From positions 1 to 64,000 of the forward strand of contig JALWYH010000030.1 of the NCBI GenBank assembly GCA_027078475.1: a DNA stretch of 64,000 nt, given 5' to 3'. Both the position numbers and the translations under genes were made by a program. The notes beneath the pieces are model-generated. The model was not told the origin of the DNA and did no database searches. It worked only from the letters and a program-made list of their open reading frames with translations. Each line of letters starts with the position of its first letter. The first letter of the stretch is position 1. Origin of the DNA: Thermoproteota archaeon (lineage in GTDB: Archaea; Korarchaeota; Korarchaeia; Korarchaeales; Korarchaeaceae). Below, one piece after another: positions 16,114 to 17,464 of the stretch.

Positions 16114-17001
16114 ATGTTCGAGCTCGTGTCTAAGGGCGGCAGGATCAAGGTGGCCAGTCACGGAGAGGACTTGGATGGGTTGTTCTCGGCCTCGCTGATA
16201 ATGTTCGTACATCCGGAGAACCTTAGCGTCCATTTCACGGCCCCCTACGAGATAAAGGGGTCCGGTGAGACCTTTGACCTCGTGCTCGACCTGCCTCCCC
16301 CCAGCGGAGGAGCCATAATGCTTGTGGACCATCACGAGTCCAACCTCTCACTGCTGGATAGGGTGAGATATCCCATCCTGAAACCGAACTATCCTTCAAC
16401 CGCGAGGCTCCTCCACGACCTACTGGTCAGGTGGGAGCCCTCGGTCGAGGAGTTCTCCAGCACTTTGGACCTAGTCGACAAAACTGATACCGGGGATCTG
16501 GACCTGCCCTCAGCCCTGTTCACCGCTGCCGTGAGGAGGATCTTCAAGAGGAGGAGGAGTTATCTCTCCAAGGTCGCGAGGGATCTGTTGGCCCGTACCC
16601 CGACGAGCGGCGAGGATCTAGTCAAGTTGCCTTCCCTGAGGGGGGAGATAGAACTCATAGAGAGAGAGTATGGTGACAGGATAGAGGACCTGCTCTCCTT
16701 GAGAGGGGGAGATGCCCTCTTGGTCCAGATGAAGGTCCTTCCATCCTATCTGGTCCCCGTGGTCCAGCTGGCGGCAAGGAAATACCGGTTCTTCGGAACT
16801 ATAACCACGGGTTCCGACGGCGCCCTCAGGCTATCGCTGAGGAGCCGGGATGACTCGCCCATAACGGCACTGGAGGTCGCCGAGAGGCTGGGAGGAGGGG
16901 GGCACAGGAACGCGGCGGGTGCCCTGATAATGCCATCCAAGATGGAGGACCTGATCTCCATGATCGGATCCTTTATGGAGCTCGAGTTAATAACGCTCTG
17001 A
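16114..17001 (+). CDS. DHH-family phosphoesterase
   Basis: 295-residue member of the DHH/DHHA1 superfamily (RecJ, NrnA, archaeal GAN). The first metal motif reads SHGEDLDGLFSA, the DHH motif is VDHHESN, and the C-terminal DHHA1 substrate-binding loop is GGGGHRNAAGA. Such proteins degrade single-stranded nucleic acid or short oligonucleotides. The chain is shorter than RecJ and lacks an S1 or OB domain, so a nanoRNase or oligonucleotide phosphatase role is the better guess. An AGGGGAG-like site precedes the ATG. A C/D guide RNA begins only 12 nt after the stop and may be processed from this gene's transcript. Confidence 0.8.
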   Translation: MFELVSKGGRIKVASHGEDLDGLFSASLIMFVHPENLSVHFTAPYEIKGSGETFDLVLDLPPPSGGAIMLVDHHESNLSLLDRVRYPILKPNYPSTARLLHDLLVRWEPSVEEFSSTLDLVDKTDTGDLDLPSALFTAAVRRIFKRRRSYLSKVARDLLARTPTSGEDLVKLPSLRGEIELIEREYGDRIEDLLSLRGGDALLVQMKVLPSYLVPVVQLAARKYRFFGTITTGSDGALRLSLRSRDDSPITALEVAERLGGGGHRNAAGALIMPSKMEDLISMIGSFMELELITL

Positions 17002-17013
17002 TGACACTGGTGC

Positions 17014-17075
17014 GGGGGCTGTGATGTAGGAGGTGATCCATGAGGGGTGATTAGACGCTTTAGGACTGAGCCCCC
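17014..17075 (+). ncRNA. Box C/D sRNA with two 16S rRNA guides
   Basis: The architecture is exact. Stem GGGGGC (17014-17019) pairs with GCCCCC (17070-17075). Box C is GUGAUGU (17021-17027), then a 12-nt guide (17028-17039), box D' AUGA (17040-17043), 3 nt, box C' GUGAUUA (17047-17053), a 12-nt guide (17054-17065), and box D CUGA (17066-17069). The D' guide AGGAGGUGAUCC is the complement of the universal 16S 3' end GGAUCACCUCCU. The D guide GACGCUUUAGGA complements the conserved archaeal 16S stretch CCUAAAGCGUC around E. coli position 572. By the fifth-nucleotide rule the methylated sites would be C1533 and A572. Boxes C and C' each depart from consensus at one base. Confidence 0.82.
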
Positions 17076-17078
17076 ACC

Positions 17079-17084
17079 TTTATA
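17079..17084 (+). promoter_or_regulatory. TATA box of cupin gene (leaderless)
   Basis: TTTATA is centred 26 nt before the cupin ATG at 17108, immediately downstream of the C/D sRNA. Confidence 0.55.
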
Positions 17085-17107: not shown

Positions 17108-17464
17108 ATGGCCCGCCCCTTAATCAAGGACATTGAATCTATCCCCTTTGAAGAGGTCCCCCAAGCTAAGGGAACTTACATAAAGTGGGTGTTCTCACCC
17201 AAGGACGGTGTCCCCAATTTCTCCATGAGGATATTCAGGGTGGAGGCAGGAGGTCACATCCCAGAGCACAGCCATCCCTGGGAGCACGAGATACTCGTGC
17301 TTAAGGGAAGGGGGGTCATCAGGATTGGGAATGAGGAGTTCGAGGTCAGGGAGGGAAATGCCATCTTCGTCCCGCCCGATGTTCCCCATGAGTACTTTGC
17401 CCACGAGGAGATGATGTTCCTCTGCATGATACCCAATGAAGGAGTCCCGCCAGAACTGAGGTGA
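17108..17464 (+). CDS. Cupin-fold metal-binding protein
   Basis: A 118-residue single-domain cupin. Motif 1 is GGHIPEHSHPWEHEILVLKG, with histidine and glutamate ligands; motif 2 is REGNAIFVPPDVPHEYF. Proteins of this sort bind one metal and serve as small isomerases, dioxygenases or sensors; the substrate cannot be told from sequence. It is leaderless (TATA at 17079). The stop overlaps the region of the thpR ribosome binding site, so the two genes are likely co-transcribed. Confidence 0.8.
   Translation: MARPLIKDIESIPFEEVPQAKGTYIKWVFSPKDGVPNFSMRIFRVEAGGHIPEHSHPWEHEILVLKGRGVIRIGNEEFEVREGNAIFVPPDVPHEYFAHEEMMFLCMIPNEGVPPELR

Follow-up and report, generated by a model that had tools for sequence, protein, structure and literature searches.

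A korarchaeal box C/D sRNA gene with a guide complementary to the anti-Shine–Dalgarno tail of 16S rRNA

The prevailing view of box C/D guides is that they turn over quickly and cluster on the core of the ribosome, and the D′ sites of C/D sRNAs can be poorly active. In eukaryotes, snR45 and SNORD13 are C/D RNAs that act near the 3′ end of small-subunit rRNA and guide cytidine acetylation in helix 45. Archaeal box C/D sRNAs are 50–70 nt long, carry guides of 10–12 nt and choose their target by the fifth-nucleotide rule (PMC7994747), and methylation by an archaeal C/D RNP is highest with a duplex of 8–10 bp (PMC7089733). For seven archaea, conserved 16S guide sites are reported in helices 3, 18 and 27 (PMC4644070). 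Proteins are known at the 3′ tail of 16S rRNA: during ribosome assembly in bacteria, Era, a factor that archaea never had, binds precisely GAUCACCUCC at the end of 16S (PMC10582724), and eS26 of Saccharolobus wraps the tail and excludes Shine–Dalgarno (SD) pairing (PMC11698992).

Here, we describe a 62-nt intergenic box C/D sRNA gene at 17014–17075 (+) of the window, by which we mean the whole 64,000-nt stretch of DNA that was analysed (Table 1). Read 5′ to 3′, it is GGGGGC-U-GUGAUGU-AGGAGGUGAUCC-AUGA-GGG-GUGAUUA-GACGCUUUAGGA-CUGA-GCCCCC, exactly the architecture described in the initial annotation: a 6-bp stem, boxes C, D′, C′ and D, two 12-nt spacers and a 3-nt D′–C′ gap. The locus is like the archaeal box C/D sRNAs of the L7Ae–Nop5–fibrillarin type in length, boxes, 12-nt guides and D′–C′ spacing of 3 nt, and also in its k-turn with a 3-nt bulge and closing stem. 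Boxes C, D′, C′ and D stand in the archaeal order, with guide and RNA lengths inside the archaeal ranges; the sheared G·A pairs of C/D (GA/GA) are kept together with a 6-bp closing stem, G003 being the exception; D′ and C′ are able to pair, through A1–U6 in this genus (g1) and C1–G6 in other lineages; both guides match the own-genome 16S at 11 of 12 positions; and the genes for Nop5 and fibrillarin are adjacent in the same genome (G000:C19:17834-19209). The locus scored 69–79 bits with a covariance model. At the Rfam gathering score it had no match, and the window gave two tRNAs only. Membership of the archaeal C/D sRNA class was confirmed by every sequence feature tested.

Table 1. Coordinates of the sRNA gene, its elements and its surroundings in the window
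Feature	Coordinates	Strand	Remarks
Upstream DHH-type gene	16114..17001	+	Adjoins the sRNA in genera g1, g3 and g5
TATA-like element GTTAATAA	16986..16993	+	About 29 nt upstream of the stem, inside the DHH gene at its 3′ end
Complete box C/D sRNA gene	17014..17075	+	Between the DHH-type phosphoesterase gene and the cupin gene
Closing stem, 5′ strand GGGGGC	17014..17019	+	Pairs with 17070–17075
K-turn bulge base U and box C GUGAUGU	17020..17027	+	RUGANGN in 22/23 homologues
D′ guide AGGAGGUGAUCC	17028..17039	+	Complement of the 16S 3′ tail (anti-SD), 11/12; predicted target C1533
Box D′ AUGA	17040..17043	+	A1 pairs with U6 of C′
Box C′ GUGAUUA	17047..17053	+	From comparison of homologues
D guide GACGCUUUAGGA	17054..17065	+	11/12 to 16S at about E. 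coli 569–579; predicted target A572
Box D CUGA	17066..17069	+	Covaries with box C
Closing stem, 3′ strand GCCCCC	17070..17075	+	From comparison of homologues
Downstream cupin-type gene	17108..17464	+	Own TATA-like box at about 17079–17084, after the sRNA

The locus also differs from each described system. Its D′ guide fits the single-stranded anti-SD tail, whereas the reported archaeal hotspots are the core helices, and its D′/C′ pair is A–U in this genus where the usual archaeal C/D sRNA has C–G. Like snR45 and SNORD13 it is a C/D RNA aimed near the small-subunit 3′ end, but their site is helix 45 and not the 3′ tail. The GTPase Era of bacteria and organelles shares the site GAUCACCUCC but is a protein, not an RNA, and acts without methylation. 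The eS26 of TACK and Asgard archaea also covers the 16S tail and competes with SD pairing (PMC11698992), as does the bS21 pocket of Bacteroidia (PMC9976891), but both are ribosomal proteins on the mature 30S. Era and eS26 are analogies of site and not evidence of function here. The k-turn in the 5′-UTR of archaeal l7ae likewise lies beside an SD-like sequence, but it is a cis regulator in an mRNA, with a single k-turn and without guide–target complementarity (PMC5539422).

Upstream of the stem, the element GTTAATAA is likely the sRNA promoter; TATA-like octamers were found at −24 to −29 from the stem in most korarchaeal homologues, which is consistent with an independent transcript. In G016 and G020, neither the DHH nor the cupin gene lay within 1.5 kb of the homologue.

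The own 16S gene (G000:C39, L001) ends in ..GGCUGGAUCACCUCCCAUUAU, read as GGCUGGAUCACCUCCC|AUUAU. The D′ guide paired with this end at 11 of 12 positions, with an A opposite a C at guide nucleotide 1 (the outer end), and the core of this guide, GGAGGUGAUC, is the 10-nt complement of GAUCACCUCC (E. coli 1530–1539), a length within the 8–10 bp duplex optimum of PMC7089733. The complementarity to the 16S 3′ end was as initially annotated, but the perfect 12-nt match claimed for it, a figure that goes back to the E. coli-type end CCUCCU, was not found in the own genome. Two close relatives, G009 and G011, do have a full match: their D′ guide GGGAGGUGAUCC paired 12/12 with their own 16S (..CCUCCC). 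The D guide paired at 11 of 12 positions with GCCUAAAGCGUC (positions 527–538 of the own 16S, the E. coli A572 region), the same count as had been given for E. coli ~569–579. The fifth nucleotide from D′ faces C1533, and the fifth-nucleotide rule, applied to the own 16S, reproduced both proposed targets, C1533 for D′ and A572 for D (E. coli numbering). When the guides were shuffled, 11/12 was reached anywhere in the own 16S by 11 of 3000 D′ guides and 4 of 3000 D guides. The sequence GATCACCTCC/GGAGGTGATC occurred 52 times over the two strands of the own genome together, sRNA and 16S loci included, and by start-codon count the GGAGGTGATC copies within the window were mostly coding DNA (GAG-GTG-ATC codons) and not SDs. 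With GGAGGTGATC this common, a short match is weak by itself; given how frequent the 10-mer is in this genome, the case was made to rest on architecture and covariation instead of the match alone. The decisive evidence for the sRNA is comparative.

The genus of the window comprises 16 genomes and its family 24. DNA similarity and pattern matching gave twelve homologues in the genus on a first pass. The covariance-model scan of relatives that had been proposed as a check raised this to 15 of 16 genomes, all but the 70%-complete G013, and added G016, G017, G019, G020 and G021 from three other genera of the family, so that 20 of the 24 family genomes carry a homologue. The five genomes from other families of the phylum gave no homologue. 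We also scanned 84,980 species genomes (257 Gb) with the pattern ATGANGNNGGAGGTGATCNNYGAN{2,6}RTGA and obtained 30 hits, 21 of them archaeal: korarchaea, Njordarchaeota, another Asgard bin, a Thermofilaceae bin, three Desulfurococcales bins and one unclassified archaeon. The nine bacterial hits resemble coding DNA, and three of them are one actinobacterial gene. For the archaeal hits outside the family, much of the motif is fixed by the search pattern itself, several have a weak closing stem or none (L110, L129), and 16S is absent from most Asgard bins, where the guide target is not directly readable. In a 394-genome sample of relatives, the model hits outside the family with a tail-directed guide were, among the matches listed, G149 (the same unclassified archaeon as in the pattern scan), G096 and, more weakly, G116; with so few members there, the tail site is not universally needed. 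The named relatives are metagenome bins, several apparently from hydrothermal settings. Loose-pattern matches in other registers (G069, G019:C19, G014:C87) were rejected for want of a convincing C/D layout. As a separate observation, the C/D sRNAs of the small-genome archaea G096 (L147 1501-1568) and G116 (L151 1501-1575) have a D′ guide that pairs with the 16S tail over 8–9 nt, and a D guide similar, with a mismatch, to the complement of the decoding region at 16S ~1400.

Comparison of the homologues showed covariation at several pairs. In the C/D k-turn, the fifth position of box C and the second of box D were matched in 23 of 23 sequences through three pair types, U·U (UGAUG/CUGA), G–C (UGAGG/CCGA) and A·G (UGAAG/CGGA); none of 200,000 permutations equalled this matching, a figure that is too strong because the permutations ignore relatedness. 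The changes arose several times (in the G005–G009–G012 group, in G016/G020 and in L102; also in G021/G017 and L117), perhaps in four or five independent events. The 6–1 pair of the box C/D K-turn covaries too. Box D′ in genus g1 is AUGA, a departure from the consensus CUGA, and is accompanied there by a C′ of the form RUGANUW; elsewhere CUGA or CCGA goes with RUGANGN. The D′1–C′6 pair is canonical C–G in other lineages and A–U throughout g1 except in G002, and this A1–U6 pair accounts for the odd AUGA box. The closing stem, GGGGC/GCCCC at this locus, is GGCC/GGCC in genera g2, g3 and g5.

The two guides have had different histories. The core GGAGGUGAUC was invariant in the 23 homologues compared, partly by construction of the pattern for the non-korarchaeal ones; within the korarchaeal family, both this core and its distance from D′ are unchanging and the two flanking guide nucleotides vary. 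The D guide was replaced many times while the D′ guide stayed, and the guide directed at A572 occurs solely in a six-genome clade, so that the anti-SD guide is the conserved element. No convincing rRNA match was found for the D guides of G002, G006, G010, G014, G016, G017, G019 and G021, some of whose own rRNAs are unassembled. The Njordarchaeota/Asgard homologues (L127, L129, L110, L117) have a common D guide, UCCUUUAAGU, the complement of the universal 16S ACUUAAAGGA region, which suggests a two-site guide in that lineage. Two korarchaeal members are irregular: in G003 (L040 597-776) box C is degenerate (GCGAUAU) with the anti-SD guide intact, and this copy is possibly decaying; in G010 (L082) the D′–C′ spacing is 17 nt instead of 3–5, owing to extra sequence inserted between the half-guides. 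Genus g1 has another conserved C/D sRNA as well (L098, L099, L100, L101, L097 and L089, in G015, G008, G007, G001, G006 and G002, respectively); its D′ guide UGGAGGGGACAU/C matches 23S near 2129 over 10 nt, and its D guide ACACCCCUCAGG matches 16S near 1000 over the same length.

We consider it probable that the locus is an independent C/D sRNA gene whose sRNP would methylate C1533 and may also cover the anti-SD until late 30S maturation. The sRNA, transcribed from its own gene, would join L7Ae, Nop5 and fibrillarin in a C/D sRNP of the usual archaeal form; this particle would 2′-O-methylate C1533 and, while bound, would cover the anti-SD and block premature mRNA binding until late in 30S maturation. 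As far as sequence can tell, methylation of C1533 together with transient masking of the anti-SD is the most likely function, and the 16S tail probably receives a chemical mark, or is held in place, while the ribosome is assembled.

An unlikely alternative is a true C/D sRNP on the 16S tail that acts mainly as a chaperone or timer, masking the anti-SD and/or positioning the 3′ end for processing, with weak or absent D′ methylation. The target is the same ten nucleotides GAUCACCUCC that are bound by bacterial Era, which archaea lack (PMC10582724), Nob1 carries out 16S 3′-end maturation in vitro (PMC8339473), and a chaperone role has been proposed for archaeal C/D sRNAs (PMC7994747); the AUGA of box D′ in this genus points the same way. 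However, CUGA boxes return outside the genus, and the register of guide to D′ is identical in every homologue, as is needed for a methylation site and not for a simple mask. It is considerably less probable that a C/D sRNA with another RNA as its real D′ target has merely inherited the match to the 16S tail and leaves it unused. Orphan guides do exist among C/D sRNAs (PMC7994747), and the 52 genomic occurrences of the motif would leave room for other targets, but the guide core stayed fixed while the other guide changed completely, over several genera and unrelated lineages, and among the sites named 16S alone would be conserved across all of them.

The least credible reading is a leader peptide whose SD and start codon lie here, perhaps together with an L7Ae-bound k-turn as in the l7ae leader. 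GGAGGTGATCC-ATG does resemble an SD with its start codon, and L7Ae-bound k-turns beside SD sequences are known (PMC5539422), but the ATG is CUG, CCG or CGA in genera g2, g3 and g5, in other archaea and in G002, the frame after it runs from 4 to about 18 codons within the genus without shared sequence, a separate TATA-like box serving the cupin gene lies downstream, and the second box pair, D′/C′, covaries. The test on relatives suggested at the outset, which set this reading against the C/D one, went in favour of the latter: outside g1 the ATG after GGAGGTGATC gives way to CUGA, CCGA or CGAA, while boxes C, C′ and D, the 12-nt spacing and the stem persist and covary. A leader peptide predicts a conserved ATG and frame; the frame is not conserved, and the loss of the ATG outside the genus refutes this reading; an L7Ae-controlled leader was rejected on the same grounds, its ORF being unconserved.

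The sRNA class is known, and for its anti-SD target we found no described precedent in the literature searched, in agreement with the initial annotation; the Pyrobaculum family catalogue and supplementary target lists lay outside that search, so an earlier listing is possible and priority is not claimed. Set against the view that C/D guides turn over quickly and keep to the ribosome core, one guide at a fixed register has in several genera stayed on the mRNA-selecting tail even as its partner was replaced, and the same anti-SD guide recurs in Asgard archaea and further TACK lineages. We raise only tentatively, as a rather doubtful extension, the idea that korarchaea and some Asgard archaea, Thermofilaceae and Desulfurococcales have an RNA-guided counterpart of Era, in which a dedicated C/D sRNP would mark and hold the anti-SD tail and C1533 methylation would time the exposure of the mRNA-selecting site, perhaps bearing, with eS26, on the choice between SD-led and leaderless mRNAs. 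The finding raises the question of how archaea, which lack Era, make the anti-SD inaccessible while the 30S subunit is being assembled, and it predicts for the anti-SD region one specific modification, Cm1533, that is easy to test.
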